Below, one piece after another: positions 17,313 through 47,465 of a DNA stretch of 64,000 nucleotides (the first letter of the stretch is position 1; each line of letters begins with the position of its first letter). Both the position numbers and the translations under genes were made by a program. Source of the stretch: an uncultured Candidatus Cenarchaeum sp. (lineage in GTDB: Archaea; Thermoproteota; Nitrososphaeria; Nitrososphaerales; Nitrosopumilaceae); the NCBI GenBank assembly GCA_958295735.1, contig OY282369.1:2828983-2892982 (forward strand). Reading direction: 5' to 3'. The notes beneath the pieces are model-generated. The model searched no databases, was not told the DNA's origin, and saw nothing but the letters and a program-made list of their open reading frames with translations.

Positions 17313-18080
17313 ATGCTTCCGGCCCAGCAGGGGTACGACAGGGCGATAACGGTATTCTCGCCGGACGGCCGCCTGTACCAGGTGGAGTACGCCATCGAGA
17401 CGGTGAGGAGGGGCACCGTCGCGGTGGGGGTGCGCTCGCCCGGGGGGATAGTGATGGCGGCCGAGGAGAAGCCCCGCAAGCTGCAGGTGGCCGATGCCCC
17501 GCAGAAGATCTTCCAGGTGGACGACCACGTGGGCGTCGCCGCGGCCGGCTACATACCGGACGCGCGGAGCCAGGTGGACAACGCGCGGTTCTTCGCCCAG
17601 AGCAACCGGCTCATATACGACGAGCCGGCCGAGGTGGAGGCCGTCGCCAAGCATCTGGCCGACCAGTGCCAGCAGTTCACCCAGTACGCGGGGGTGAGGC
17701 CGTTCGGGGTCTCCCTCATACTGGGGGGCGTGGACGGCGGCGGCGAGGGGCGCCTCTTCCTCACGGATCCCAGCGGCACGTACGTGCCGTACGACGCCAT
17801 CGCCATAGGATCGGGGGCCGACAAGGCGACCGAGTTCCTGGAAAAGTCCTACAGGTGCGACGCGGGGCTGGAGGAGGCCTCGGCGCTGGCCGTTGCGGGC
17901 ATACGCGCGGCCGGCGACGGGGACGCCGAGGACGACCATACTAGCGTCAGGATGGCCCGCGTGCGGGCCGGCGGGGACGGGGCCTTCGAGATGATCCCGG
18001 AGGACGAGGTCGCCGGGTTCGTAGAGAAGGGCCGGGAAAAGTACGGGAAGGCGGCCGGGCGGCAGCAGGGCGGCGAGTGA
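17313..18080 (+). CDS. psmA: 20S proteasome alpha subunit
   Basis: A 255-residue protein with the classic alpha-subunit N-terminus YDRAITVFSPDGRLYQVEYA. It continues with the RRGTVAVGVRSPGGIVMAAEEKP strand pair, then GVAAAGYIPDARSQVDNARFFAQSNRL and the ADQCQQFTQYAGVRPFGVSLI region typical of archaeal alpha subunits. It forms the outer rings of the 20S core particle and gates substrate entry; it has no N-terminal catalytic threonine. The ATG at 17313 is chosen because family homology starts there and a TATA-like box lies 30 nt upstream; the open frame extends further 5' only because of GC content. The C-terminus ends in a Gly/Gln-rich tail. The next giant gene begins 134 bp downstream with its own promoter. 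Confidence 0.95.
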   Translation: MLPAQQGYDRAITVFSPDGRLYQVEYAIETVRRGTVAVGVRSPGGIVMAAEEKPRKLQVADAPQKIFQVDDHVGVAAAGYIPDARSQVDNARFFAQSNRLIYDEPAEVEAVAKHLADQCQQFTQYAGVRPFGVSLILGGVDGGGEGRLFLTDPSGTYVPYDAIAIGSGADKATEFLEKSYRCDAGLEEASALAVAGIRAAGDGDAEDDHTSVRMARVRAGGDGAFEMIPEDEVAGFVEKGREKYGKAAGRQQGGE

Positions 18081-18183
18081 GGCGGGGGCCGGGGCTCTTC
18101 GCCCCGGATGCCCCTCGGCTGGCGCGAGCAGCGCGGGCCCCGCCTTTCGGGATGCCGCGCGCGGCGGGCGCCTTTCATGGGCG

Positions 18184-18193
18184 AGTTTATCTA
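18184..18193 (+). promoter_or_regulatory. TATA-like box of the second giant gene
   Basis: AGTTTATCTA is the only AT-rich patch between psmA and the giant gene. The TTTAT begins 29 nt before the ATG at 18215. Confidence 0.6.
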
Positions 18194-18214
18194 CCGGCGG
18201 AACGGCGGACGCGC

Positions 18215-36200: not shown

Positions 36201-37693
36201 CTGCGGGGGAGCGGCGGGGCGAGCGGCGCGTGCAGGTGGGCGCGTTCTCGACGGGGCCGGGCGACCCCGCGGCGGGGGCGGCGAGGCTGGGGGCCGAGGC
36301 CTTCAACGCCCTGTCCGCGGAGCGCGGGTACGGGTTCCTCCTCAACGTGACGGAGCACGCGGTCCCGGCCGGCGCGTCGGGGGCCGCGGCCGAGGCGGCG
36401 CTCCGCGGCGCGCACGACGGCGGGCGGGGGCCCGTCCTGTACGTGGGCCCGGCCTCGGACGCCGCCGTGCGCGGCATGGCGGGGTACGCGGCGGCGAACG
36501 GGATCACCATGGTATCGCACTCGTCGGCGGCGCGCTCGCTGGCAGTTGAGGGGGACGGGATATACAGGCTGGAGCCCGCGGAAGCGCACGCGGCCAGGGC
36601 CCTGGCCGGCGCGGTAGCGCGGGGCGGGTTCGATTACGTGGTCCCGGTGGCGCAGGAGGGCCCGCGCGGCCCGGGGCGCGGCCTGCCGGGGCTGCTGGAA
36701 TCGGACCTGGCGCCGCTCGGGATACCCGTGGGCCGGCCCGTCGCGTTCTCGGACGGCGGGGCCGCCGCCGGGCCCGTGGAGGCCGCCGTGGGGGAGGCGG
36801 CGGGGAACGGGAGCGTGGCCGTCCTGTACGCGGGCTCGGACTCGGGGTTCGCCGCCCTCGCCGGGAGCCTGCCGGAGGGCGGCCGCGCGAGGGAGGCCGC
36901 GTGGTTCGCGGCCGGCGGCGGGCTGGCCGCCTCCCCCATAATCGCGCGGGATGCCGCGGCGGCGCAGCTGGCCATGGACACGCGGCTCTACGCCGTCCGG
37001 TTCGCCGTGGAGCGGAACGCGGTGACGGACTATATCGACCGCGCCGCGGCCCCGCCGGGGCCGGCCGGGACCGCCGCGGCGGCCTACGCCGCGTACGAGG
37101 CCGCGCGGGTAATCGGCGGCGCCCTGGCGCTGGCCGGGGGCGACCCGTCCGGGGCGGGCGCGCACGTGATAAAGGCGGCCGCGCTGGACGGCGGCCCGCT
37201 CGGGCGCGTGTCCCTGGACGGGAACGGCGACCTGCGGATGCCGGCGACGTACGGCGCGTGGTCGGTGTCCGGCGAGCCGGCGGGGTGGGAGCGGGCCCCG
37301 GAGCTGCTCCGCGGGATGGACGCGTGCGGGATATCCCTGGGCAAGCCCTCGCTCGCCCTGCCCGGCCTGGCCCCCGGGCGGACGAGCGGGCAGGCGCGGC
37401 AGACAGTGACCAACGCGGGGACCGTGCCGATGCCCGCGGTCTCGGTCGCGGCAGGGGACTGGGCGCTGCACGGGGACGGGGGCTCCCCGACCGGGGGGAC
37501 GCTGCCGTTCTCGCTCACGGAGATGTCGGTGGACGATGCCGGCTTCGCCCCGCTGGCGGCGGACACCGCCATACCGGGCGGGACGCCGGCGGGCGGCAGC
37601 GTGGGCGTCGACTTCCGGCTGGACCTGACGGGGGTGCCGGAGATCGACGCCGCGTACGTCGCGCAGACCGTCACGTACGGGGCGGGCTGCTAG
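18215..37693 (+). CDS. Giant lipoprotein-like NHL / Ig-repeat protein with LivK-like C-terminus
   Basis: About 6,492 residues. The ATG at 18215 is chosen from the TATA-like box 29 nt upstream; the frame is open from a GTG at 18077 that overlaps the psmA stop. Residues 81-98 (PLAATLILSAALLAGC) look like a lipoprotein signal with Cys 98, after an unusually long 80-residue N-region. Seven NHL blocks follow at about residues 172-445, 645-892, 1099-1259, 1769-2009, 2216-2486, 2692-2939 and 5249-5502. Ig-like domains separate them, and a near-continuous Ig array fills 2972-5189. Beta-rich domains (5542-6002) lead to a type I periplasmic-binding-like module (6004-6372) and a terminal beta domain ending in Gly-Cys. 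A cell-surface adhesion or ligand-sensing role is inferred. There is no membrane helix at the C-terminus, and sequons are abundant. Confidence 0.85.
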   Translation: MPLGGESGDAGPGISARGGKGQGAALPPPGARAVLAKGGAGRRGRTPLPIGNGSGSGPGGGGGKDASAPAARTPIAASRNRLPLAATLILSAALLAGCSAAAPHAHADGDRLTVEISNGTASPTNLQAVPFTMKFNRQIDDLTLDASDINVSSGAVRNLRLAPQHSATLGGGPGGSQFYYTTGVAVDASGAVYVADYGKDHRNASVRVFDSARRYVADLPGSFESPHGVAVDASSGAVYVADTRTRRVQVFDSARNYVADLSHPFYRPHGVAVDASSGAVYVADYGNDRVHVFDSSRRYVADLPGQFDSPHGVAVDASSGAVYVADTGNDRVAAFNSTGHYVADIPGPFYHPNGVAVDPSSGTVYVADMLNSRVPVFNSTLHHVADLPGKFHNPHGVAVDASGAVYVLDTPVRLAVTERVALDGSTGAVYVADTSRRQIRVFDAAYAFDVVDPAGGQMLTAGMPAGRVQDMAGNSNIASDTASIRQYRTPMVTAIQSSPTSAATINFKVEFGDAVTGFGAGDVVLSGTAARGNVTNFTGGGSTYTFDVAPASDGTILVDIPAGAARDAAGYHNGAATRFSITYDGTPPVPTISAAQSGPTSLRAAPLTVKFNEVVNVATLDASDIDVSSGAVQNLRMVQHSLTLGSRGSGSGQFYAPFDVAVDSSTGKMYVADPGIDRVQVFNSTRHYVADLPGQIGSPHGVAVDGSTGAVYVTGNHSVAVFNSTGHYVADLPGQFRSPTGVAVDGSTGAVYVTDHLRVASFNSTGHYVADLPSTFLRPSGVAVDGSTGAVYVADWSNYGRVRVFNSTLHHVADLPGPFNRPVDVAVDGSTGAVYVADAYNHAVRVFNSTLHHVADLPGAFRQPHGVAVDGSTGAVYVADTYNHAVQIFDTTYEFDVADPAGGQMLTASMPAGRVQDAAGNANEASDTMGIYPDGTGPTLLVTAVQSSPTGAATINFEVEFGESVTGFEAGDVVISGTAARGNATNFAGNGSAYTFDVSPESDGTIVVDIAAGAAQNAAGDYDAAARFSIIYDGTHPVPAIAPAQAGPAGPQAVPFVVEFSEAVNAETLDASDIDASSGAVNNLRIVPQRNATLSGHGSGGELNITSAVAVDATSGAVYVAYAENHTVQVYNSTRHYVADLSYPFYNPYGVAVDGSTGKVYVADTWDGRIKIFDSAGRHIDYASHIAYYPNPVADYGSPGPVYAIRHGDKIVQVFDTYKNRVANIAGLNQSYGVAIDGSSGAIYVAHPHNRTVQVFGTAYAFDVADPAAGRALAVSMPAGRALDAAGNANVASNEAVVHLDRTAPTPVVTAAQSSPTNATTISFAVNFGENVTGFEAGDVVLSGTASRGNATNFAGNGSAYTFDVSPTSVGTILVDIPAGVARDAAGNPNAAAERFSVTRSGEAPVPVVTSALPNPTNSAAIRFAVEFSESVTGFRSGNIVLSGTASRGGVANFSGAGASYSFVVHPASNGTILVDIPAGMSKDAEGNPSAAAERFSITYDGTAPVPVVASAQAEPAGAAAIGFTVEFGENVTGFAPDDIRISGAASSGVVANFSGAGASYSFAVHPASDGTILVDIPAGVARDAAGNGNAAAEQFSTVYDRSAPVPATSAAQPNPTNAATISFAVEFSESVTGFGAGDVVLSGAANHSGAANFAGNGSSYAFDVSPESDGTVFVDIPAGAALDAAGTRSAAAERFAIEYDGTPPVPTFASTQTGATNLTAVPFTVKFSEPVNVAIIDASDIDVSSGAVQDLRMVLQYNATISNHVAGSGPYIIPYDVAVDGSSGRTYVADTWFDRVAAFNSTRHYIADLPGPFNNPRGVAVDDSTGRIYVADSGNHRVAVFNSTGHNIANITGSLNYPSGVAVDGSTGMIYVADSGNHRVQVFNSTLHRVADLPGPFNYPNSVAVDDSSGTAYVVTSGNAVKVFNSTWHHVGDLPGPFYHPNGVAVDPFSGAVYVAEWGNDRIRVFNSTWHHVADLTGPFRDPSGLAVDGSGAIHVVDLHNTRIQILRTAHAFDVSDPADGHTLAVGMPAGRALDAAGNANEASDTIRIDIDRTAPAPAVTAAQSSPTNATMINFTVEFGESVDWFEPGDITLSGTASRGNATNFAGSNGTYAFDVPLASDGTVFVDIPAGAALDAAGHRNHASTRLQMVRDGTPPVPAIAPALTGPAGRVAVPFSMEFGEAVSAATLDASDIDVSSGSVLDLRLVLRHNATLGGPGAGNGQFDRPRGVAVDGSSGRTYVADTGNGRVQVFDSAGHYVADLPGPFYGPTGVAVDGSSGAIYVADGGTGRILQFYSTPEGSHRAATDRGRVLVFNATMHHVADLPGMFNNPRGVAVDGSSGRTYVADTSNDRVQVFNSTRHYVADLPGPFYHPGSVAVDGSSGRIYVADWSNGGRVRVFNSTLHHVADLPGPFSGPYGVAVDGSGAAYVADTSNDRVIVFNSTLHRIADLPGPFYDPYGVAVDHFSGALYVVDTYADRVQVFHPAYAFDVADPAVGRTLTAGMPAGRVLDMAGNANEESDAAGIYVGRAAPTPAVAAVRPSPTNASTINFEVEFGENVAGFEAGDVVLSGTASRGGVSNFAGGAGTYTFDVSPASDGTILVDIPAGAARNAAGDYSGAAARFSIAYDGTPPVPAIVQSPYGSADPRAETFIMKFGEAINYSTLDASDIDASSGAVQNLRLWPRQSAIIGDGAGDSRLNRPYGVALDDSTGTTYVADTYSARVAAFNSTLHHVADLPGPFSWPAAVAVDGASGAVYVADTYGHSVKVFDSATGNHVANITGPIGNPVAVAVDGSGAVYVADEYNDRVLIFNSTLHHVADLPGPFYDPTGVAVDGSSGAVYVVDRGRVRAFDSAGRHVADIPDPPRSPHAVAVDNSGTIYVTGTHHHNVRAFNSTLHHIGGLGVEFNDPYGIAVNGSTGAIYVADTWHNSIRIFDPTYWFDVVDSAGGQAPTVGMQAGRVRDAAGNGNEATRFSVERGGLPPIPTITSMLPGPTNATTIGFAVEFGENVTGFAAEDVDLSGTASHGGASNFSGGGSAYAFDVSPASDGTVLVNVPAGAARDAAGNPSLAAAPFSITYDGTAPVPAITAAQSDPTSSSPINFRVEFGENVTGFGAADVAVTGAATRDGVSNFAGAGANYAFDVKPSGDGAIVVDIAAGAARDAAGNPSDAASRFSITYDGTAPVPAITAAQSDPTSSSPINFRVEFGENVTGFGAADVAVTGAATRDGVSNFAGAGANYAFDVKPSGDGAIVVDIAAGAARDAAGNPSLAAAPFSITYDGTAPVPAITAAQSDPTSSSPINFRVEFGENVTGFGAADVAVTGAATRDGVSNFAGAGANYTFDVKPSGDGAILVDIAAGAARNLAGSNSTAAERFSITYDGSRPEPVITTVQSDPTSSSTINFRVEFGENVTGFGAADVAVTGAATRDGVSNFAGAGANYAFDVKPSGDGAIVVDIAAGAARDAAGNPSLAAAPFSITYDGTAPVPAITAAQSDPTSSSPINFRVEFGENVTGFGAADVAVTGAATRDGVSGFAGAGANYTFDVKPSGDGAILVDIAAGAARNLAGSNSTAAERFSITYDGSRPEPVITTVQSDPTSSSTINFRVEFGENVTGFGAADVAVTGAATRDGVSNFAGAGANYAFDVKPSGDGAILVDIAAGAARNLAGSNSTAAERFSITYDGSRPAPAISAEQSSPTNAAVISFRVEFGEDVTGFGADDVALSGVAARDGVSGFAGAGANYTFGVKPSGDGAILVDIAEGAARNGLGNNSTAAGRFSIEYDGTAPVPNITAAQPDPTGSSPITFTVNFTEPVTGFTAAGIVLSGDAAPGPAANFENGSGGAVYTFDAAPAEDGAVLVDVRAGAARDAAGNPSEAAERFSIMYDGSRPAPAISAEQSSPTNAAVISFRVEFGEDVTGFGADDVALSGVAARDGVSGFAGAGANYTFGVKPSGDGAILVDIAEGAARNGLGNNSTAAGRFSIEYDGTAPVPNITAAQPDPTGSSPITFTVNFTEPVTGFTAAGIVLSGDAAPGPAANFENGSGGAVYTFDAAPAEDGAVLVDVRAGAARDAAGNPSEAAERFSIMYDGSRPAPAISAEQSSPTNAAVISFRVEFGEDVTGFGADDVALSGVAARDGVSGFAGAGANYTFGVKPSGDGAILVDIAEGAARNGLGNNSTAAGRFSIEYDGTAPVPNITAAQPDPTGSSPITFTVNFTEPVTGFAAAGIVLSGDAAPGPAANFENGSGGAVYTFDAAPAEDGAVLVDVRAGAARDAAGNPSEAAERFSIMYDGSRPAPAISAEQSSPTNAAVISFRVEFGEDVTGFGADDVALSGVAARDGVSGFVGAGANYTFGVKPSGDGAILVDIPAGAARNGLGNNSTAAGRFSIEYDGTAPVPNITAAQPDPTGSSPITFTVNFTEPVTGFTAAGIVLSGDAAPGPAANFENGSGGAVYTFDAAPAEDGAVLVDVRAGAARDAAGNPSEAAERFSIMYDGSRPAPAISAEQSSPTNAAVISFRVEFGEDVTGFGADDVALSGVAARDGVSGFAGAGANYTFGVKPSGDGAILVDIPAGAARNGLGNNSTAAGRFSIEYDGTAPVPNVTAAQPDLTSAAAIRFTVEFGENVTGFAPGDVKISGTAARGGVADFSGSGASYSFGLSPTSDGTVLVDIPAGAARDMAGNPSAEAERFSMRHDGKLPAAPTPTITAAQPDPTNSAAISFRVNFSEPVTGFRSANVALSGTAGHGGVENFAGSGASYSFDVSPTSDGTILVGVPAGMAKGASGRPSAAAERFSIEYDGTVPVPNVTAAQPDPTGSSPITFAVNFTEPVTGFTSADVVLSGDAAPGPAAGFSSRSGGAVYAFDVAPASDGTVQVDVPAGAARDAAGNPSAAAPQFSIRYDGSRPAPAISAEQSGPTNAAPINFRAEFGEDVTGFGPEDVALSGAAARDGVSNFAGSGANYAFDVKPSGDGAILVDIPAGAARNGLGLNSTAAARFSIEYDGTAPVPNVTAAQPDPTGSSPIAFAVNFTEPVTGFTATDVVLSGDAAPGPAANFANGSGGAVYTFGVSPAGDGAVTVDIPEGAARDAAGNPSAAARFSTEHGSTRPAATITAAQQSPTNAATIGFAVKFTGNVTGFGPEGIALSGTAAHGGVENFAGSGASYSFDVSPTSDGTILVGVPAGAARGMAGGSTAAARLLMVYDGTPPVPSIAPGLPGPTGARTVPFIIEFGEFLDAATFGAHDVAASSGEVRNLRFAPLHNSAFGVRGTGGGQFDQPAAVAHDAATGRVYVADANNHRVQAFDAALNYLADLPGPFDSPRGVAADGLGRVYVADTNNDRVRAYDSATGSHAADITDSISGPIGIAFDGSTGAMYVSNAGSDTVQVFDRGGKRAGALPGPLGSPRGVAVDSSGRVYVADIDGGAVHAFDRGGSSAGALPGPLGSPRGVAVDGSGNVYVADMDGGAVHAFDRAWNRAGALPGPLGSPSGVAADHSGRVYVADAGGHRVHVYDAAYAFDVVEPDGGRTLAAGVPAGRARDLAGNANVASGGAGIMIDRAAPEVLRAAITGPNQATIRYSEPVAAGGGAYGAVAVSGAARAVAAVYGGGTDAHTVQFSGDAAPGGAAGSVAVNRTAVADPAGNALDPGPGGPRAPAGGLLVYAAGEIYRQALADGQGPSLVSALLDLTAGENGRLALEFDEAAAAPDVGSFAGAIRVAGAGGAVYLSAGDVPSVASGHAGDAAFALDLSGAKRVQLNALDMGSATISLPAGFVSDLRGNAHAGGGGQPVPLEHVQDPSPPKLVRATVNLAPAGGGAGRLTLVFDEAATAPDPRQPAGISRAASPAAVLSAGDAVSVASGRTGDRTFGLLVSGAGIAALGAAGQPPATVSLPAGFVSNGRAGSEPAAAPLEAGRDPAGPSFARAFVSGNDSVTVAYTEPVLTVPAHYTGMTVDGAAVRGNAGGASGAAAFGKYVVVSWNAGAGTSASAGSTVGFVLSGNVTDAFGNPLDNPGPKSAGERRGERRVQVGAFSTGPGDPAAGAARLGAEAFNALSAERGYGFLLNVTEHAVPAGASGAAAEAALRGAHDGGRGPVLYVGPASDAAVRGMAGYAAANGITMVSHSSAARSLAVEGDGIYRLEPAEAHAARALAGAVARGGFDYVVPVAQEGPRGPGRGLPGLLESDLAPLGIPVGRPVAFSDGGAAAGPVEAAVGEAAGNGSVAVLYAGSDSGFAALAGSLPEGGRAREAAWFAAGGGLAASPIIARDAAAAQLAMDTRLYAVRFAVERNAVTDYIDRAAAPPGPAGTAAAAYAAYEAARVIGGALALAGGDPSGAGAHVIKAAALDGGPLGRVSLDGNGDLRMPATYGAWSVSGEPAGWERAPELLRGMDACGISLGKPSLALPGLAPGRTSGQARQTVTNAGTVPMPAVSVAAGDWALHGDGGSPTGGTLPFSLTEMSVDDAGFAPLAADTAIPGGTPAGGSVGVDFRLDLTGVPEIDAAYVAQTVTYGAGC
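27463..29262 (+). repeat. Exact 300-bp tandem repeats coding 100-residue Ig-like domains
   Basis: Six successive 300-bp units keep exactly the same phase, each containing GVSNFAGAGANY or a close variant and VKPSGDGAI. Some units are nearly identical. Variants such as GSRPEPVITT against GTAPVPAITA alternate in part, giving a partial 600-bp pattern. Confidence 0.95.
29243..31960 (+). repeat. 606-bp higher-order repeat (300 + 306 bp Ig-like pair)
   Basis: The start GGCTCCCGGCCC recurs at 29243, 29849, 30455, 31061 and 31667, a strict 606-bp period. Each unit codes for two different Ig-like domains (VALSGVAARDG type, then IVLSGDAAPGPA type). Differences between units are few, such as FAGAGANY to FVGAGANY near 31217. 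This suggests recent unequal recombination or conversion. Confidence 0.95.
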
Positions 37694-38480
37694 CCGGCGC
37701 ATTCCGCCGCGGCCGGCGGCCCGCCGCCGGGCCGCCCCCAGCGCCGGCGCGGGGCGGCCGGGGCCGGCTTTCCGGCCCCGGGGCGCGCGGCCCAGGGATC
37801 CCGGCGGGCGCGAAAGGGGCGCGCGGGGCGGGCTTCGGGATCGGCTGCCCGGGCAGGAAGGCCCCGGAGGCGGCCTGCCGCGCGGCGGGCGGGCCCGCCC
37901 CCCGCGCGGGGCGCGGGCGCCGCCGCGGGGGAGGCCGCCCCGAAACCGCGGGCCCGCGCGCGATCCGGCGGATCCGCCCGCGGGGCGGCGCGGCCGCTCG
38001 CGGGGAGGATGCCCGGGGAGGCCGGGGAAAAGGCCGCCGGCGGGCAGGCGGGACGGCGCGGCATCTGCCGGGATGGGAGGGCGAGCCGCTTTCCGGATCC
38101 CGCGCGCCCCCCGCGCGCCGGGGCGCGCCGCCGCCTCCCGGCGCCTGCCGCGCCGGGCCCGCGGGGCCCCGCGCGGCGCCCCCGCCGCGCATCCTGCGGC
38201 CGCCGGGGCAGGGAACGGGGACCCGGCGTATTGTTGCGGGGCCCCGGCCTTCCCGCTCGGACCCGGGCTCCCCGCCCGCGTTCGGATCCTTCCCCGTGAC
38301 GGGCAGCCCGCCGCGCGCGACGCGCCCGGGCCCGGCCGCGGCCGCCGTCCCGGGCCGGGCGGTCCCGGGCGCGGTCGCGGGATGCGCCGCGCCCTCCCGG
38401 CCCGCCCCGCGGCCAGGGCTTCGGGCGCGGAAAACCGCCCCGCCGCGGGCGCGGTTGCGGGACGGGCTGCCCCCGCCAAA
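37694..38480. other. GC-rich spacer, no gene supported
   Basis: Open frames occur on both strands but are low-complexity Pro/Arg/Gly/Ala without recognisable domains or promoter. I see nothing that can be annotated. Confidence 0.5.
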
Positions 38481-38481
38481 A

Positions 38482-38490
38482 TGTTATTTA
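38482..38490 (+). promoter_or_regulatory. TATA-like box before small membrane protein
   Basis: TGTTATTTA is an AT-rich island inside very GC-rich DNA. Its TTATTTA begins 29 nt before an ACG codon at 38513 that opens the downstream reading frame. Confidence 0.4.
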
Positions 38491-38512
38491 GCGCCCCCGC
38501 CGCCCCCGCGCC

Positions 38513-39064
38513 ACGGCAAGACACACCTTCCCGGCGGCCGCGATCGGCTGCGCCGCCCTGGCGGCCGGCGCCGCGGCCGGCGCCGCGGCCGGCGCCGCGG
38601 CCGGCGCCGCGGCCGGCGCCCCCGCCCCCCTGATCGCCCTTCCCGCGCTCGCCGCCCTCGCCGCGGGCTGCATCGCGCTCCGCGCGCGGCGCCGCGCGCG
38701 GCGGTCCTCCCGCGCCGCCCGGGACGGCGCGGGCGGGGATCCGGGCAGGCGGGATCGGGGGCCCGCCCCCCTGGCGGCAGTCCGGGCGGCCCGCGCCCCC
38801 TCCGCCCCTCCCGTCCCGGCCGGCGAGGACCGCGCGCTCGCCCTCGTGACCAAGCGCCAGACCCGCAAGCAGCGCCACCGCGCCGTCCGCGACCGCCAGG
38901 CCTACCACGAGGCCCGCTCCCGGAAGAACATGCCCCCGCACATGCCGGGCGCCCAGGCCGCCGCCAACATCGACCGCCTGAGGGAAATCGACGCCTCGTT
39001 CCCCGTCCGGTACGCGCGCCGCCGGCACCGCGACGAGTACGCGGCGAGGCTGAACGAGCGGTAG
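38513..39064 (+). CDS. Small Ala-rich membrane protein with basic cytoplasmic tail (start uncertain)
   Basis: The C-terminal 72 residues, from a GTG at 38846, already look coding: KRQTRKQRHRAVRDRQAYHE, then NIDRLREIDASFPVRYARRR. The same frame extends upstream to a TAG at 38489 and codes for one long or two short hydrophobic segments (FPAAAIGCAALAAGAAAG, APLIALPALAALAAGCIAL) followed by Arg clusters, as in a membrane anchor obeying the positive-inside rule. With the TATA-like box at 38482-38490, leaderless initiation would fall on an ACG codon at 38513 (183 residues). No ATG, GTG or TTG lies between. A non-canonical start, a mutated start, or use of GTG 38846 are the alternatives. The function is not recognised. 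Confidence 0.5.
   Translation, partial: TARHTFPAAAIGCAALAAGAAAGAAAGAAAGAAAGAPAPLIALPALAALAAGCIALRARRRARRSSRAARDGAGGDPGRRDRGPAPLAAVRAARAPSAPPVPAGEDRALALVTKRQTRKQRHRAVRDRQAYHEARSRKNMPPHMPGAQAAANIDRLREIDASFPVRYARRRHRDEYAARLNER
38561..38620 (+). repeat. Five 12-bp repeats coding AAAG-type helix turns
   Basis: GCGGCCGGCGCC is repeated at 38561, 38573, 38585, 38597 and 38609. In the membrane-protein frame it codes for repeated Ala-Ala-Gly-Ala in the hydrophobic segment. Confidence 0.85.
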
Positions 39065-39866
39065 CGCATCCCGCGGCCGCGCGAGCCTGCGGATCCCGGG
39101 CGCGCGTTCCGGGCGCGGCCCCGGCGCCGCCGCGCGGCCGGGCGCCCGGATCGCGGCGGCGGGCGGGGGCGGCGCGATCGGATTGCTCGGGGGGGAGGCG
39201 AAGCGCGCCGGGCAGGCCGCGCCCCGGTCCGGAACGGCGGGCGGCGCGGGGGCGCGCGCCGCCGCCGCCGCGGCGGGGGCCCCGAGGAACGCGCCGGGAA
39301 GTCCCGCCCGCGCGCGGGGGCGCCCGCGTCCGCCCCGCGGGATCGGCGATGCCGCCCCCGCGTTCGCGGCGGGCCGGCCCCCGGGCGGCGACGAGCCGGG
39401 CGGCCCCGCGCCCGACGTGGCGGGGCCCGCCGGCATGTCGGGGGCGCTGCCGGGGCGCCCGCCGCCGGGCCGCGGGCCGTTCGGCGCGGCCGCGCGGGGC
39501 CGCGGGGGCGATGCCGGGGGGCGCGCCGAACGGGCACGCGGGATCGGGCGACGGGCTGCCGGAAAATCCGGCTGCCGGGATCGGGAGGCTCGCGCCGGCA
39601 CTGCCCGCGTTCGTGGAATGCCAAGAGGCGGGGCCGGCCGACGACTCCCCGGGTCGCGCCCCGCGGCGCGGCGCGGCGTTCCGCGGGACGAGGGCGCGGA
39701 TCAAGGGCGGCCCGCTGCCGCGATGCGCGCGCCCGGCTTCGCGGCCCGCGTCCCTGCCCGGGGGCGCGCGGCGGGAGCGCGGCTGCGGGAGCGGCGAAGC
39801 TGATCCAAGCGGCTCCGCCCCCGAACCGCGCCCGCGCGCGCGGGATGCTGGCCCCGCGCAGGCGCC
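39065..39866. other. GC-rich spacer, no gene supported
   Basis: About 800 bp of low-complexity GC-rich DNA. I find no AT-rich promoter island and no domain in any frame. Confidence 0.5.
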
Positions 39867-39958
39867 GTGCAGACTTGCGCCCAAACCGAAATCGCGCCTA
39901 GCGGCAACAATCCGCCCCGCGATCCCGCGCCCGGATCACGATGGGCGTAAGTCTACAC
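39867..39958. repeat. 92-bp inverted-repeat element, copy 1
   Basis: The ends GTGCAGACTTGCGCCC and GGGCGTAAGTCTACAC are inverted repeats with two mismatches. The whole 92 bp aligns with 44573-44664, which has the same length. A MITE-like element or a structured intergenic repeat is likely. It lies about 120 bp upstream of a small-family promoter. Confidence 0.7.
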
Positions 39959-40075
39959 AGGCGCCCGTATGAGGTCACGTACCCGTCAATTACGGGCGCG
40001 AAAACGACTTCGCCGATCCGGATTCACGCCTGAGGAGTGGGGGGTGCTGACCTCGTACAGGCACCCAAACCAAAA

Positions 40076-40083
40076 ACTAAATA
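40076..40083 (+). promoter_or_regulatory. TATA-like box of small-family gene, copy 1
   Basis: ACTAAATA lies 27-29 nt before the ATG at 40105. The surrounding bases are shared with the other two family members (about 42130 and 46165). Confidence 0.6.
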
Positions 40084-40104
40084 CGAGCAAGATCCATGCC
40101 ACGC

Positions 40105-40329
40105 ATGGTGCAGGCGGCGGAACAGCGCGCGGAGCAGGCGGCGGAACAGCGCGCGCCGCGGACGGAAGCGACAATATCATCAGAACTTTGGGCGCACTAC
40201 CACGAAGAGTCGGCACGGAGGAGCATAGATATGGTCATAAATGACGAAGAGCGAAGATGGGAAGATAATCACAAGTACCGCCGCGAAGATGCCAGGAAAT
40301 GGGAACTCGCGCTGGTTGAGGACGACTAG
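40105..40329 (+). CDS. Small charged repeat-containing protein, family copy 1
   Basis: A 74-residue hydrophilic protein starting MVQAAEQRAEQ and ending ELALVEDD. It has a short N-terminal AEQ repeat and a conserved core (SSELWAHYHEESARR, then a Glu/Arg-rich stretch), probably helical or coiled. A first ATG at 40096 is also in frame. I choose 40105 because the corresponding first ATG is GCG in copy 3 while the second is kept in all three, and because 40105 has leaderless spacing to the TATA box. Copies 2 and 3 are at 42164 and 46196. Promoter, core and about 80 bp of 3' flank are all conserved. No known domain is recognised. Confidence 0.75.
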   Translation: MVQAAEQRAEQAAEQRAPRTEATISSELWAHYHEESARRSIDMVINDEERRWEDNHKYRREDARKWELALVEDD

Positions 40330-40507
40330 CCGCCTCCCCCGTCCCCGACCGCCCGCGGCAGAATCAGGTCCGCCGATCCGCCGTTTCCCTCCTGTATTGC
40401 CCGTACGCACTTATCCCCCCCGCCGCGCCTCGGGGCCTCCCTGGTGGGCCTGCAAGCCGCGTAAGATTGGTTTGGCATGAGTCGATTCGTATTGGTGGGG
40501 CGGATTT

Positions 40508-40990
40508 GTGCCTGCCGGCGTGGCGGAATCTGGGGTGGCGCTGCCGCGCGAGGAACCGGCGGCAGCGCTCGGAAATAACGCGGAGCGGGCAGCCGAGATC
40601 GCGGGACTGGAGGCCGAGGACTCGGAGCGGGAGCTGCCGCGCGAGGAACCGGCGGCAGCGCTCGGAAAGAACGAAGCTGAAAGCTGCGGCCGCGGAGCGG
40701 GCGGCCAAGGCCGCGGAGCGGGCGGCCGGGCTTGCCGCGTGCGGCAGCACGGACGCGCCCTCGTCGACCCTCGGCACGAACGGCCCACGGCGGAACGCCT
40801 GGCGCAAGGGGCGGGGCTGCGAGGGGAGCGACGGGGCGGGATCCGGCGGCGGGCCCGCGCCTTCGGACTGCGGCGCCCCGCGCGAGACGGGCCCGCCCGG
40901 GGGACGCAAGGGCGTCCCGCGCCGCGACTGGCCCCGGTTCGCCACGCGGTGCGGGATCCCGGCGCGCCCCGCGTGCCGCGGCCCCCCGGA
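40508..40990 (+). pseudogene. Possible decayed transposase N-terminus (IS66-like)
   Basis: From a GTG at 40508 the frame reads LPREEPAAALGNN, EIAGLEAEDSERELPREEPA and AALGKNEAE, an acidic heptad-like region. It contains a direct DNA repeat (GCTGCCGCGCGAGGAACCGG) near 40541 and 40632. After about 40680 another frame is more protein-like (AERAAKAAERAAGLAACGST, DAPSST, then GGRKGVPRRDWP). A Leu/Glu coiled coil followed by a PPSS-like and GGRKG-like stretch is the order seen at the N-terminus of IS66 transposases, so a frameshifted remnant is possible. Similarity is weak and no catalytic residue is identified. What follows up to about 42110 is GC-rich DNA without a clear gene. Confidence 0.25.
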
Positions 40991-42115
40991 AATGTCCGCC
41001 CGGTGGCAAAACCTGGCCGGCGACTTCGATCAGCGCCGGCGCGCGGCCACCGCGATCGGGGCGGAGGAGGGCCGGCGCGGCAGGCGCGGGGAGTTACGCG
41101 AGGCCCGGGCGCCGTTTCCCGAGGGCGCCCCGCGCGGCCCCGGGGCGCTCGGCCCGATCCCGGCGCCCTTTACGACGGGCCGCGCGGGCGCGAAGATCGC
41201 GGGCTTTGTCGAGCCCGCGTCCTGCTTACGCATCCCGGGGGCCGCCGTGGCGAAGGCCCGCGGGGCCCCGGCGGGCGCGTCGGGGAAGCGGCCGGGGGAC
41301 AGCGGGCGTTCCGCGGGAACGCGTTCGCGCGCGCGGGAGGGACCGGGTTCGGGATCGGCGCGCCGGGCAGGACAAGCTGCGCGCGGGCGACGCCGCGCGG
41401 GCGCGCTTCGCGCCCGGCCGCGGGGCGGCAGTCCCGGGGGAGCACTTCGGCCGGATGCCCCGTAAGGCGGCGGCGGCAGACGGGCTGCCGGCGTACCGCG
41501 GCGAGTTCCGGCATCCGGAGATGCCGCGGGCACCTGCTCGCCGGGGGCGAGGCCGCCGCCGCGGGCGGCGGCACGGGGGGCGAGGCGAGGCACGGTCGGC
41601 TCCCGGGGCACCCGCAGGACGCGCGGCAACGGGACGCCGGCGCCGCCCGCCGCGGCGTGCCTCGCCGGGGAGTTCCGCGACGCCGTCTGGGCGCACCCGG
41701 AAGGCAGGCCGAAGACGCGCCCCGCCGGCGCCGAGCCGCGCGCGCCAGCGTTCGCGGGATTCCGCGGCATGCCGCCCCGCGACGACCCCGCCGGGCCCGC
41801 CATGCGCGACCACGTGGCGACGCGGCGCAAGGCGCGCCACAAGATCCCCGCGCCGGGGGGGGAGCGAGGCGTTCTCCGGGCTGGCCGCGCTTGCGGCACC
41901 GCCCGCACGGACCGCGCGTTCGGGGGCAGGGTCGGCATCGATCGCCCGCAACCCCGATTGGAGCGCGTTCGACCCAGGACCCCGGGCCGGGCCCGACTGG
42001 CGCGTCTTCGATTCACCCGCATCCGGGCTGGTGCGCCCGCCGGCCCCGCGGCGGGGCGGCCGCCTGGCCGGCCCCGGCGGATCCGCCGGGCGCGCGCGGG
42101 CGGCGTCAGCCCGCA
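40991..42115. other. GC-rich stretch without a supported gene
   Basis: Open frames change from strand to strand with no stable codon pattern. Short protein-like scraps, such as AFSGLAALAAPPARTA near 41860, suggest decayed coding DNA, possibly the rest of the remnant at 40508. Nothing can be assigned. Confidence 0.4.
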
Positions 42116-42133
42116 TCCGGCATCCAAACCAAA

Positions 42134-42141
42134 AATTAAAT
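42134..42141 (+). promoter_or_regulatory. TATA-like box of small-family gene, copy 2
   Basis: AATTAAAT is 28 nt before the ATG at 42164. It sits in the block CCAAACCAAAAATTAAATAC that closely matches copies 1 and 3. Confidence 0.65.
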
Positions 42142-42163
42142 ACGAGCAAGATCCATGCCACGC

Positions 42164-42472
42164 ATGGTGCAGGCGACGGAGCAGCGCGCGGAGCAGGCGA
42201 CGGAGCAGCGCGCGGAGCAGGCGACGGAGCAGCGCGCGGAGCAGGCGACGGAGCAGCGCGCGGAACAGCGCGCGGAGCAGGCGACGGAGCAGCGCGCGCC
42301 GCGCGCGGAAGCGACAAAATCATCAGAACTTTGGGCGTACTACCACGAAGAGTCGGCACGGAGGCGCATAGATATGGCCATGAATGACGAAGAGCGAAAC
42401 TGGGAAGATGAACGCAAGTACCGCCGCGAAGATGCCAGGAAATGGGAACTCGCGCTGGTTGAGGACGACTAG
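42164..42472 (+). CDS. Small charged repeat-containing protein, family copy 2
   Basis: A 102-residue protein, the longest family member because an 8-residue repeat (ATEQRAEQ, 24 bp) is expanded to about five units at its N-terminus. The conserved core SSELWAYYHEESARRRIDMA and the terminus KWELALVEDD match copy 1 closely. The start at the second ATG is preferred for the reasons given for copy 1; an in-frame ATG lies at 42155. The 3' flank after the stop is nearly identical to copy 1. The HEPN-TPR gene begins 120 bp downstream on the same strand with its own TATA-like box. Function unknown; a helical scaffold or small regulatory partner is one guess. Confidence 0.75.
   Translation: MVQATEQRAEQATEQRAEQATEQRAEQATEQRAEQRAEQATEQRAPRAEATKSSELWAYYHEESARRRIDMAMNDEERNWEDERKYRREDARKWELALVEDD
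42170..42300 (+). repeat. 24-bp variable tandem repeat in small-family copy 2
   Basis: GCGACGGAGCAGCGCGCGGA-type 24-bp units occur about five times, with one half-unit. Copy 1 has about one and a half units and copy 3 has none, so the array length differs among paralogues. Confidence 0.85.
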
Positions 42473-42555
42473 CCGCCTCCCCCGCCCCCGACCGCCCGCG
42501 GCAGAATCCGGTCCGCCGATCCGCCGCTTCCCTCCGGTATTGCCTATTAGAAACA

Positions 42556-42563
42556 GATAAATA
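42556..42563 (+). promoter_or_regulatory. TATA-like box of HEPN-TPR gene
   Basis: GATAAATA is an AT-rich island 34 nt before the ATG at 42592, slightly further than at other genes here. Confidence 0.5.
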
Positions 42564-42591
42564 GTAACGGGCCGTACGGCCGGTTGCAACC

Positions 42592-44280
42592 ATGCGGATA
42601 AGATTCAGGCGCATCGACGAGGCGGCGCGCGAGCAGGACATCGGTTCGGTATTCGCGGAGTTTGGCCGGATCAAGTCCAAGATGAAGCGCGCCGACTACT
42701 TTGCGGGGAACTGCTGCACCGTGGGGCTGGTCACGGTGCTCGAGCAGTTCATGAGGCACACCGTCGAAACGCTGATCGACGAGGGAAAGGTATCCCCCGG
42801 CAAGCTTGTGGGCGGCGAACTGCCTGGTCCCGAGCCGCCTGGCGGGGACTCGCTGGCGCGGCGCATCGCGTTTTCCATGAATTTCCAGAACGTCGATTCC
42901 ATAAAAAACGTCCTGAACGAAATCGGCATGCCGTGCGCGTTCGACCGCTGCCTGCGAGGACCGCGCCGGGCAACGCTCGATGCCCTGTTCGTCCACAGGC
43001 ACCGCAGGGTCCACGGGTCCTTTGACCTGCCGCCGATCGAGCTCAACCGGCGTTTTGGAGCCGTCCTGGCGTTCATGAGATGCATCATGCTTGAGATCCA
43101 CTCCAGCAACCGCCATTTCTGCCTGCACGTGGGGGACGGCCTGTCCCGTTCGCGCGAGTACAGGGATGCGATCATGTACTACGACATGGCGCTTGCCGTA
43201 CGGCGGGACGATCCCTGCGCGCTCGTCAGGAAGGGGGAGTCGCTCGCGGAGCTGGGGCGGCACGGGGAGGCCGTGGAGTGCTGCGACCGGGCCCTGGATC
43301 GGGACGACTCCGCGCTCGTCAGGAAGGGGGAGTCGCTCGCGGAGCTGGGGCGGCACGGGGAGGCCGTGGAGTGCTACGACCGGGCCCTGGATCGGGACAT
43401 GGACGACATGTGCGCGCTCGTCAGGAAGGGGGAGTCGCTCGCAAAGCTGGGGCGGCACGGGGAGGCCGTGGTGTGCTACGACCGGGCCCTGGCCATGGAT
43501 CCGGACTACCCGTACGCGCTCGTCAGGAAGGGGGAGTCGCTCGCAAAGCTGGGGCGGCACGGGGAGGCCGTGGAGTGCTACGACCGGGCCCTGGCCCTGG
43601 ATCCGGACTACCCGTACGCGCTCGTCAGGAAGGGGGAGTCGCTTGCGCGGATGGGCAAGCACGGGGAGGCGGTCATGCACTACTGCCGGGCCCTGGCCCG
43701 GGATCCGGGCTACTCCCGCGCGCATGCCATGCGGGGGACGTCGCTCGCGGAGCTGGGGCGGCACGGGGAGGCCGTGGAGTGCTACGACCGGGCCCTGGCC
43801 CTGGATCCGGACTACCCGTACGCGCTTGCCGGAAAGGGGGAGTCGCTCGCGGAGCTGGGGCGGCACGGGGAGGCCGTGGAGTGCTACGACCGGGCCCTGG
43901 CCCTGGATCCGGACTACCCGTACGCGCTTGCCGGAAAGGGGGAGTCGCTCGCGGAGCTGGGGCGTCACGAGGAGGCGGTCATGCACTACGACCGGGCCCT
44001 GGCCCGGGATCCGGGAGACTCCCGCGCGCATGTCGCGAAAGGAGTGTCGCTCGCGGAGCTGGGGCGGCACGAGGAGGCGGTCATGCACTACGACCGGGCC
44101 CTGGCCCGGGATCCGGGAGACTCCCGCGCGCATGTCGCGAAAGGAGTGTCGCTCGCGGAGCTGGGGCGTCACGAGGAGGCGGTCGCGCACTATGACAGGC
44201 GGCTGGACATCGTCCCGGACGACCCGTACGCGCTTGCCAAGAAGGAAGAATCGCTCGCGGAACTGGGGCGTCACGGGTAG
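42592..44280 (+). CDS. HEPN-like domain fused to tandem TPR repeats
   Basis: 562 residues. Residues 1-175 form a helical domain resembling RiboL-PSP/MAE-type HEPN domains: MNFQNVDSIKNVLNEIG, then a loop with R136-H-R-R-V-H141-G. That fits the Rx4-6H signature of HEPN ribonucleases. Residues from about 180 to the end are about eleven TPR units of 34 residues (for example ALVRKGESLAELGRHGEAVE), with near-identical 102-bp DNA repeats. HEPN domains are commonly RNases in toxin-antitoxin and antiviral systems, and TPRs usually bind partners; an RNA-targeting effector with a TPR sensor is inferred. The last TPR stops at GRHG where other units continue GRHGEAV, consistent with GAG to TAG truncating the array. 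No signal or membrane segment is seen. Confidence 0.75.
   Translation: MRIRFRRIDEAAREQDIGSVFAEFGRIKSKMKRADYFAGNCCTVGLVTVLEQFMRHTVETLIDEGKVSPGKLVGGELPGPEPPGGDSLARRIAFSMNFQNVDSIKNVLNEIGMPCAFDRCLRGPRRATLDALFVHRHRRVHGSFDLPPIELNRRFGAVLAFMRCIMLEIHSSNRHFCLHVGDGLSRSREYRDAIMYYDMALAVRRDDPCALVRKGESLAELGRHGEAVECCDRALDRDDSALVRKGESLAELGRHGEAVECYDRALDRDMDDMCALVRKGESLAKLGRHGEAVVCYDRALAMDPDYPYALVRKGESLAKLGRHGEAVECYDRALALDPDYPYALVRKGESLARMGKHGEAVMHYCRALARDPGYSRAHAMRGTSLAELGRHGEAVECYDRALALDPDYPYALAGKGESLAELGRHGEAVECYDRALALDPDYPYALAGKGESLAELGRHEEAVMHYDRALARDPGDSRAHVAKGVSLAELGRHEEAVMHYDRALARDPGDSRAHVAKGVSLAELGRHEEAVAHYDRRLDIVPDDPYALAKKEESLAELGRHG
43200..44280 (+). repeat. 102-bp tandem repeats coding TPR units
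   Basis: About ten full 34-codon units, many almost base-identical (for example two copies of the GDSRAHVAKGVSLAELGRH unit), plus a truncated last one. Low divergence suggests recent expansion. Confidence 0.9.
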
Positions 44281-44572
44281 GCGGCAGCGCGGCCCGGCGG
44301 GGCATCGGCCGCCGATCCCAACAGCCATTCCCCCGCCGCGGGGAGATCCGGGCCGGCCGCGATCCCGGGCTCGCCGATGCCGCGGCGGTGCGCGGCTGCC
44401 TTCCCGCCGCCCGCCGCGCCCGCGGCGGCGCCGTTCTCGCTTGCCGCAGTCCGCGCCAGGAGGCGATACGGCGCATCGCGGTAAGCGCGGCGCCGGCCAG
44501 CCTCCGGGCGGCGGCCGTCCTGCAGACGGGATCGGGGGGCCGCGGGGCGGGCCGCCCAGGGGGAGGCGGCAG

Positions 44573-44664
44573 GTGCAGACTTGCGTCCAAGCCAAAACCG
44601 CGCCTGGCAACGGCAGGCCGCCCCGCGATCTCACGCCCAGATCACAACGGACGTAAGACTACGC
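44573..44664. repeat. 92-bp inverted-repeat element, copy 2
   Basis: Same length and order as 39867-39958. It begins GTGCAGACTTGCGTCC and ends GGACGTAAGACTACGC. The inner part, including CCGCCCCGCGAT, is also shared. A more decayed relative may lie around 45848-45920. Confidence 0.65.
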
Positions 44665-44954
44665 GGCGGCAGGGCCGGTTCCCGCGCGGGCGCTTTCGCC
44701 GATCGGGGTTCCCCCGCCCGGCCCCGCCGCCTCATGCGGGAGGCTCCCTCTCCGGGACACGGTGATCCGGGGGGCTGCCCCGGGGGACTCGCGCGCGAAA
44801 AGGCCGGGGCGGGGAACGCCGGCCGCGCGCGGCCTCGAGGCTGCCTGCTCCCGGGATACGGGCAGGGCGGGGGGACCGGGGGAAGCCGCGCGCGCAGGCC
44901 GGCCGGCGCGGGAGGTTCCGCCCCCTACCTCCACGGCCCCGCCGGTTCCGCCGC

Positions 44955-45573
44955 GCCCGCCCGCGCCGCGTCCGGGGCCGCGCGGATGACGGGCGGCGCC
45001 CCGGCGGCGGCCGGGGGCGACCCGTCGGGGGGGGGGGGGGCGCCACGGGAGCGGCCGCCCCGGACGGCGGCCCACCCGGGCGCATCGCCCCGGACGGGAA
45101 CGGCGACCCGCGGCTGCCCGCAACGTGCGGCGTATGGTCGGTCCCGGGCGCGCCGGCGTAGCGGGAGCGCGCCCCGGAGCTGCCCCGCGGAACGGGCGCG
45201 CGCGGCATTGCGCCGGAACGGCCGCCGCCCGCCCCGCCCGGCCCTGCGCCGGGACGGGCGGGCGGGCGGGCGCGGCGGGCGCGGCGGACCGCGACCGGCA
45301 CGGGAACGGAGCCGATGCCCCGAGCCCCGGTCCCGGCGGGGGACGGGGCGCCACGCGGGGGCGGGGGCTCCCCGACCGGCGGGACGCCGCCGTCCTCGCC
45401 CGCGATGCCCGCGGGCCCGGCAGGGCCCGCCCCGCCGGCGGCGGATGCCGCCGTACCGGCCGGGACGCCGGCCGGCGGCGGCGCGGGCGTCGGCTTCCGG
45501 CCGGACCTGGCGGGGGCGCCCGGGCCGGGCGCCGCGCGCGTCGCGCGGGCAGACGCGCGGCGCGGGTTGCCGG
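44955..45573 (+). pseudogene. Decayed copy of the giant-gene 3' end (LivK-like module)
   Basis: Colinear with the last 600 bp of the giant gene ending at 37693. It has the GCGGCCGGGGGCGACCCGTC stretch, GACGGGAACGGCGACC near 45098, then CGGGCGCGCCGGCG...GCCCCGGAGCTG near 45145, and the final ...GGCGGCGGCGCGGGCGTCGG near 45473. A stop (TAG near 45160) and length changes, including a run of ten G near 45030, break the frame. It is non-functional. It is one of three such 3'-end copies (with 46926 and 51139). Confidence 0.65.
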
Positions 45574-46160
45574 CCGGCCCATCCCGCCGCGGCCTGCCTC
45601 CGGCGGCCCGCGGCCGCGCCGGATCGTCACGGCGGCCCCCCGCATCCGCGGGCGCGCGCCCCGTTCCCGGCATGCCGGGCGAGCCCGCCCGGAGCCGCCC
45701 AGGCCAGGCGGGCGGGGCGGATCCTTCCGGCCCGCGCGGGGCGGCGCCGGGGGGGACGGGGCGGGGAAACCGGGTGGAGGGCGGAGCCCGCGCGCCGCAC
45801 GGCACGGCTGCGGCGCGGGGCGGCGGCGCGCGGGCTCGCCCGGGCCGAAACCGCGCCCGCGGCGGAAAGCCGCCCCACGATCGCGCGCTCGGATCGCGGC
45901 GGGCACGAGCCCGCACGCTGGCAAGTGCGGGGTCGCGCGCCCGTCAGCCGCGGGCGCGGAAGCGCCCCCGCCGATCTGGATTCGCGCCCGAGGGGCGGGG
46001 GTTGCTGGCCCCGTGCGCTGGCAGGCACGGGGCATTTTCTACCGCGCCCCGCCGGGCGCGGGCAATGGCGGTGCCGGATCGCGGGCGGGGAAAGGCGGGC
46101 CCTCCCGTCGGGCACGCGGGGGCGCGGCGGGGAGGGGGGAGGCGGGCGCGGCGGGCGCCA
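45574..46160. other. Repeat debris, with a duplicated promoter/start-like segment
   Basis: CATTTTCTACCGC near 46034 with an ATG 30 nt later (46066) closely resembles the promoter and start at 48693-48726, but the frame here runs into the next small gene and is probably dead. Around 45848-46030 there is a degenerate relative of the 39867-40060 region. No gene is supported. Confidence 0.45.
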
Positions 46161-46167
46161 AACCAAA

Positions 46168-46175
46168 AATTAAAT
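46168..46175 (+). promoter_or_regulatory. TATA-like box of small-family gene, copy 3
   Basis: AATTAAAT lies 26 nt before the ATG at 46196, within a block shared with copies 1 and 2. Confidence 0.6.
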
Positions 46176-46195
46176 GAGCAAGATCCGCGCCGCGC

Positions 46196-46393
46196 ATGGA
46201 TCGGGAGGCGGAACCGCGCGCGCCGCGCGCGGAAGCGACAATATCATCAGAACTTTGGGCGCACTACCACGAAGAGTCGGCACGGAGGCGCATAGAGATG
46301 GCCATGAATGACGAAGAGCGAAACTGGGAATATGATCGCAAGTACCGCCGCGAACATGCCAGGACCTGGGAACTCGCGCTGGTTGAGGACTAG
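46196..46393 (+). CDS. Small charged protein, family copy 3 (no N-terminal repeat)
   Basis: A 65-residue protein with the conserved core SSELWAHYHEESARRRIEMA and the terminus WELALVED, one Asp shorter than copies 1 and 2. It lacks the AEQ repeats and starts MDREAEPRAPRAEA. In this copy the first of the two ATGs seen upstream in copies 1 and 2 is replaced by GCG, which identifies the second as the family start. The 3' flank (GCCGCCTCCCCCGCCCCCGA) is shared with the others. The function is not recognised. Confidence 0.75.
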   Translation: MDREAEPRAPRAEATISSELWAHYHEESARRRIEMAMNDEERNWEYDRKYRREHARTWELALVED

Positions 46394-46470
46394 CCGCCTC
46401 CCCCGCCCCCGACCGCCCGCGTCAGAATCCTGCCCGCCGATATGCCGCTTCCCTCCGGCGTTGCCTACTT

Positions 46471-46925: not shown

Positions 46926-47443
46926 AGCCGCCCCGGACGGCGGCCCGCCCGGGCGCATCGCGCCGGGCGGGAACGGCGACCCGCGGCTGCCGTCAACGCG
47001 CGGCGCGCGGTCGGCATCGGGCGCGCCGGCGGGGCGGGGGCGCGCCCCGGAGCCGCCCCGCGGAACGGGCGCGTGCGGGACATCCCCCGAAAAGCCGCCG
47101 CCCGCCCCGCCCGGCCCCGGGACGGACGAGCGGGCAGGCGCGGCAGGCCGCGACCGACGCGGGGACCGTCCCGATGCCCCCGGGTCCCGGCCCCCGCCAC
47201 GGCCTGGGCGCTACGCGGGCTCGGCGTCTCCCCGACGGGGGGGGGGGGCGCCGCCGTTCTCGCTCGCGGAGGTGCCCGCGGGCTCGGCCGTGTTCGCCCC
47301 GCCGGCGGCCGATGCCGCCGCGCCGGGCGGGGCGCCGCCCGGCGGCAGCACGGGCGTCGACTACCGGCTGGACCCGGCGGGGGTGCCCGGGCTGGGCGCC
47401 GCGCGCGTCGCGCGGACCGTCACGTGCGGGGCGGAATGCTGGC
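46926..47443 (+). pseudogene. Decayed copy of the giant-gene 3' end
   Basis: Colinear with 37190-37693. It has the GACGGCGGCCCGCCCGGGCG start, GGGAACGGCGACCCGCGGCT, the GAGCGGGCAGGCGCGGCAGG stretch, CCGTTCTCGCTCGCGGAGGT, and a terminus where the TGCTAG of the functional genes is TGCTGG. Deletions and a run of nine or ten G near 47240 break the frame. It is probably non-functional. The next gene's promoter begins 23 bp after it. Confidence 0.7.
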
Positions 47444-47465
47444 GGGCGGCGGGCCGATGCAGAAC

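Follow-up and report, generated by a model that had tools for sequence, protein, structure and literature searches.

Small charged-protein cassettes and HEPN-TPR genes as candidate two-gene modules in the genome of an uncultured Candidatus Cenarchaeum sp.

The stretch analyzed here, referred to as the window, comprises 64,000 nucleotides of contig OY282369.1 (assembly GCA_958295735.1) of an uncultured Candidatus Cenarchaeum sp. and corresponds to positions 2828983–2892982 of a one-contig genome of 3.17 Mb. It carries three copies of a cassette encoding a small charged protein, and a gene for a HEPN domain fused to a long array of tetratricopeptide repeats (TPRs), hereafter HEPN-TPR. A preliminary description of the window, made from the sequence alone, had counted a family of three; protein search, pattern search with a control, and profile search concordantly find 24 cassettes in the genome. 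There are also 12 HEPN-TPR genes, and each is preceded by a cassette on its own strand. Cassette and HEPN-TPR gene together look like two-gene modules, with a function that we infer.

The gap between the two genes is 114–326 nt in 11 of the 12 pairs. In the twelfth it reaches 1958 nt and contains a sequence bounded by inverted TGTTGTGCAGAAAT copies, which indicates an insertion between the cassette and the HEPN-TPR gene. No HEPN-TPR gene lacks a cassette (0/12), while half of the cassettes (12/24) are solo; such one-sided dependence would be expected of a toxin that requires its antitoxin. Cassettes do surround the HEPN-TPR gene of the window, as was first reported, and the meaningful relation is the cassette upstream of every HEPN-TPR gene. 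Distances between HEPN domains correlate with those between the small proteins (Mantel r = 0.79, p = 5e-5), and the HEPN domains of the diverged paired subfamilies are 51–66% identical to the window copy. One HEPN-TPR gene (genome 79648–75636) is interrupted by about 2.3 kb of inserted DNA, its remaining TPR array being located at 76329–75636.

The pairing is also found in a second organism. Contigs filed under Binatia and Acidimicrobiia metagenome-assembled genomes, with the same DNA in both (CATQHV010000002.1, CATQHD010000001.1, and others), contain cassettes, and the TFIIB gene carried by a sister contig indicates that this set is archaeal; it probably represents a mis-binned second archaeon. 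Its cassettes are arranged in direct tandem and have the same 5' block. On one of its contigs (G493 contig 2), a cassette open reading frame (ORF) starts at 82187 and a HEPN-TPR gene lies 128 nt downstream of it, indicating that the linkage predates the Cenarchaeum genome. The small protein is absent from the other genome of the genus and from the rest of the 150 family and 397 phylum genomes. A distant HEPN-TPR gene occurs in only two other genera of those sampled, with no cassette seen. No relatives were found in viral contigs and plasmids, and an initial HEPN scan of wider genome contigs gave no confirmed match.

Each cassette comprises an archaeal TATA box, a variable repeat body, a conserved acidic C-terminus (W-E-L-x-L-V-E-D-D), and a conserved 3' flank of about 75 nt. 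Nearly all contain AAATTAAATA or a near variant, with a conserved ATG about 21 nt further on, as would be expected for leaderless transcription in archaea. With up to three mismatches allowed, the 5' block has 21 matches in the genome versus none for the reversed control, which rules out chance. The 24 cassettes are dispersed and all share the identical two edges, supporting the proposal that the whole cassette is duplicated as a unit. By the start of the ORF they fall into the MVQ, MEx, MD, and MAQ subfamilies; the repeat unit is 8 aa long in MVQ and of other kinds in MEx and MAQ, and MD has no repeat. The frame is intact in 23 of 24 copies (the frameshifted one is at 2337835), protein lengths range from 49 to 199 aa, and length changes are by whole codons. 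The C-terminus is W/M-E-L/F-x-L-V/D-E-D-D, or nearly so, in all copies.

The promoter block (-36 to 0) is the best-conserved cassette DNA, with 84% identity across subfamilies versus 48% for shuffled controls. The 3' flank retains 66–67% identity over about 76 nt and then drops to near the shuffled level; an RNA structure in this flank was considered and rejected, since RNAalifold gives no conserved pairs. Cassette promoters and ORFs form islands of 44–65% GC in adjoining intergenic DNA of 81–84% GC, which would fit if these sequences are constrained while the genome drifts toward GC. Within the window, the intergenic regions 37700–40000 and 44290–46157 (about 81–84% GC) carry long spurious ORFs in all frames, and constrained genes appear there as islands of lower GC.

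The cassettes, the HEPN-TPR gene, and the element between copies 1 and 2, all on the forward strand of the window, are made up as follows.

40060–40104, forward: promoter/leader block of cassette copy 1, with TATA box AACTAAATA and leaderless ATG at 40105, from the sequence and the family alignment of 5' blocks
40105–40329, forward: ORF of copy 1, 74 aa, 1.9 copies of a 24-bp repeat, a solo cassette
40330–40401, forward: conserved 3' flank of copy 1, pyrimidine-rich, with no conserved RNA fold
40579–42080, forward: decayed member of the IS66 family, located between copies 1 and 2
42119–42163, forward: promoter/leader block of copy 2, TTAAATA at 42136–42142, centered about 25 nt before the ATG
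42164–42472, forward: ORF of copy 2, encoding 102 aa with 5.2 repeats, paired with the HEPN-TPR gene, modeled as a single helix
42473–42544, forward: conserved 3' flank of copy 2
42553–42591, forward: HEPN-TPR promoter, with TATA box AGATAAATA and the palindrome GGCCGTACGGCC (42570–42581) between TATA box and ATG
42592–44280, forward: HEPN-TPR gene, 562 aa, HEPN domain and about 10.5 near-identical TPRs of 102 nt
46158–46195, forward: promoter/leader block of copy 3, with a 2-nt deletion after TTAAAT
46196–46393, forward: ORF of copy 3, 65 aa, no repeats, ending in ...LALVED, a solo cassette
46394–46467, forward: conserved 3' flank of copy 3

The first description holds for the TATA block, the protein core, the ELALVED end, the 75–80 nt conserved after the stop, and the starts at 40105, 42164, and 46196. 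The repeat numbers, put there at about 1.5, 5, and 0, are 1.9, 5.2, and 0 according to Tandem Repeats Finder. They are not the only difference between the copies: about eight nonsynonymous changes separate the cores, and in copy 3 the final D codon and two nucleotides of the leader are missing. The intervening DNA had been called unrelated or decayed. By blastn, the blocks common to the copies (40060–40401, 42119–42544, and 46158–46467) end sharply, with unrelated DNA outside them, and the gap between copies 1 and 2 holds the IS66-family element, decayed to 77–78%, of which the genome contains more than 20 near-full-length copies (e.g., 116024–117551). This 1.6-kb block had been considered as a third gene of the module and was rejected once it proved to be an IS66 remnant.

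Two further blastn matches are much longer. Window positions 40057–43594 are duplicated at genome 82149–78646 with 91.6% identity, and positions 40829–44421 at 69509–65604 with about 95% identity, in two pieces. The twice-duplicated segment contains copies 1 and 2 and the HEPN-TPR gene, so that some of the copies arose by plain segmental duplication. A short element with palindromic sequence, about 90 bp long (GTGCAGACTTGCGCCC...GGGCGTAAGTCTAC) and resembling a miniature inverted-repeat transposable element (MITE), is located at window 39867–39956 and 44573–44662; it is present also 3' of several cassettes and where the HEPN-TPR gene at genome 78638 is broken. Upstream, window 18077–37693 is a 6538-codon open frame with NHL-like and Ig-like repeats, probably coding for a giant surface protein, and decayed pieces of its 3' end recur at 44938–45621 and 46927–47449.

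The small protein is probably an all-helical charged rod. AlphaFold, with the three window copies as input, predicts one continuous helix (mean pLDDT 85, pTM 0.39). The copies are mostly acidic (isoelectric point 4.5–6.2), with one basic. In the sequences read, the N-termini are hydrophilic as judged by eye, with no hydrophobic segment that could act as an export signal.

The HEPN domain carries the motifs E51x3R55 and R136x4H141, invariant in all 12 paralogues and also kept in two distant homologues; the residue after R136 is H or N in these 14 sequences. The published signatures of HEPN RNases are R-x4-6-H with a polar residue after R, and an upstream E-x3-[KR] (PMC3710099). The presence of E-x3-R and R-x4-H in all 12 domains predicts that they are RNases, and HEPN-TPR proteins would accordingly be expected to cleave RNA. 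The PF18735 (Ribo L-PSP-HEPN) profile matches the paralogues with a best E value of 1e-5, below the Pfam gathering score, and the distant homologues with 6e-6 and 9e-6. A single-sequence AlphaFold model of HEPN with TPRs was too poor (mean pLDDT 40.6) and was not used. A separate short HEPN_RiboL-PSP protein, above the Pfam cut-off and outside the TPR family, is encoded at genome 1277434–1277877.

The palindrome GGCCGTACGGCC lies between TATA box and ATG in eight HEPN-TPR promoters (six exact, two with one mismatch), and MAQ-type promoters have diverged forms of it. Six of the eight exact sites in the genome are directly upstream of HEPN-TPR genes; the remaining two lie in GC-rich DNA that is not promoter-like. 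This position suggests repression of the HEPN-TPR genes.

Taken together, these features allow a tentative reading, which we favor without great confidence: the HEPN-TPR protein may be an RNase effector controlled by its helical partner, acting like an antitoxin or an adaptor. The first gene would provide a charged helical rod with a length set by in-frame repeats and a conserved acidic C-terminal tip, and the second, usually 114–326 nt downstream with its own promoter, an HEPN RNase domain joined to an extended TPR array. The small protein would bind the TPR array via its conserved C-terminal end and restrain the enzyme, which would cut RNA when released or triggered. This pair of genes has multiplied to 12 copies, and 12 further cassettes have built up without the second gene. 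The module may also have a role in defense or stress.

The ratio of nonsynonymous to synonymous differences per site (pN/pS) depends on the depth of comparison. Across seven subfamilies it is 0.43 for the final 10 codons of the small protein, by which measure purifying selection acts on this C-terminus. Among the close relatives of the window copies, the pooled pN/pS of the small protein is 2.1, with few changes. HEPN pairs stemming from the same duplications as these relatives have ratios of 1.3–1.5, those more diverged 0.30–0.35, and others intermediate values. Judged by these ratios, recent copies are relaxed or diversifying and the family as a whole is constrained. The selection originally proposed is therefore seen at the family level, in the last 10 codons and the promoter block (84% versus 48%), and not among the copies nearest the window; these behave as a plain recent repeat, with large duplications running through non-coding DNA.

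The elevated ratios in recent small-protein and HEPN copies are among several observations that weigh against an effector restrained by its partner. The cassette and the HEPN-TPR gene have separate promoters, and in the pair of the second archaeon the assembled HEPN-TPR gene contains a frameshift. PADLOC gave no match for the HEPN domain, and for the full protein only a generic TPR and other weak matches. Docking of the acidic tail in a MEEVD-type carboxylate clamp was rejected: regex-matched TPRs in all 12 arrays have no N at positions 6 or 9 and no K at 5, so that the residues of the K5N9-N6-K2R6 clamp are absent, and position 9 is mostly E. Finally, co-duplication could produce the tree correlation and much of the pairing.

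Carried further, this last point becomes the main null explanation, in which the cassette is an independent dispersed repeat or gene family of unrelated function, brought close to HEPN-TPR genes by segmental duplication only. The large duplications indeed carry cassettes, the IS66 remnant, and HEPN-TPR together, and both the 12 solo cassettes and the direct tandem cassettes of the second archaeon without an adjoining HEPN-TPR gene agree with it. It is nevertheless rather unlikely, given the 12/12 pairing across diverged subfamilies and the presence of a paired module in another organism.

The main functional rival retains the pairing and reverses the sign of control: the small protein would serve as a trigger or ligand that the TPR array senses, as in Rap-Phr systems, activating or aiming the HEPN enzyme. 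We consider it unlikely as well. The lack of a hydrophobic N-terminal segment in the sequences read makes Phr-like export improbable, and the C-terminus is nearly identical in all copies, whereas Phr signals diverge. The conserved C-terminal end itself would be expected of a trigger, as would the many paralogous pairs of a TPR receptor and its small cognate neighbor. A precedent for multi-copy TPR receptors with a small partner gene is provided by Rap-Phr: genomes of the Bacillus subtilis group contain about 11 rap genes each (PMC5199041).

In sponge symbionts, TPR proteins are also discussed among the eukaryote-like proteins (PMC7848895), and this genome appears GC-rich and rich in insertion sequences like reported sponge thaumarchaeota. 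The proteins could then be host-interaction factors rather than an intracellular conflict module, but this is improbable in view of the invariant RNase motif and the absence of a secretion signal in the sequences read. Least probable of all is that the cassette is a small MITE-like mobile element with a short ORF of little importance: its dispersal and sharp 5' and 3' edges would suit such an element, but no terminal inverted repeats are evident by eye, and 23 of 24 frames are intact, with whole-codon length changes, a leaderless promoter, and purifying selection on the C-terminus.

If the HEPN-TPR protein is an RNase effector controlled by its helical partner, the genome may hold an archaeal RNase module not described before. 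We advance only cautiously this picture of HEPN-TPR effectors with dedicated variable-length single-helix regulators, present as 12 pairs and 12 spares and perhaps serving as diversified sensors, with the length of the helix and the number of TPRs determining specificity. HEPN RNases carrying TPR arrays are already known; the small helical partner fits no family convincingly, with no match in Pfam above cut-off, NCBIfam, or PHROGs and none convincing in PADLOC. Among the sampled family and phylum genomes, the 12-fold expansion of paired putative RNase and regulator genes is confined to this archaeon, the mis-binned contigs excepted, and provides an unusual example of a probable conflict system growing within a single lineage. 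Pairs of the same or different subfamily are directly testable. More generally, the genome suggests that, under drift to more than 80% GC, constrained genes are marked by low-GC islands.

Of the known systems, Hsp90/Hsp70 docking through MEEVD/IEEVD shares an acidic C-terminal tail and a TPR protein with the modules described here, but the clamp residues K5N9-N6-K2R6 are absent here and position 9 is mostly E. Rap-Phr and other RRNPP TPR sensors likewise place a TPR protein beside a small gene, with paralogous pairs in one genome; here, in contrast, the effector is HEPN, no export signal is seen, the C-terminus is near-invariant, and the small gene is upstream. LA2681-type HEPN domains are reported both fused to TPRs and in an operon with them, and conserve R-x4-6-H, according to the portion of their description drawn on here, which makes no mention of a helical cassette partner (PMC3710099); no LA2681 profile was found in the Pfam scan of the HEPN-TPR proteins. 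Ribo L-PSP-HEPN (PF18735) resembles the HEPN-TPR domain through a weak repeated profile match and the kept R-x4-H and E-x3-R, but that match stays below the Pfam gathering score, and HEPN is here fused to TPRs rather than to endoRNase L-PSP and has a novel small partner. In the HEPN/MNT (HepT/MntA) type VII toxin-antitoxin, the two-gene module with an HEPN RNase (predicted here) is similar, but the partner here is not a nucleotidyltransferase: it is a charged protein of 49–199 aa, modeled as a helix and with no Pfam match at cut-off. The general organization of type II/VII toxin-antitoxin systems is paralleled by two adjacent genes in which the putative toxin never occurs without its partner, in 12 of 12 cases and in the pair of the second organism.

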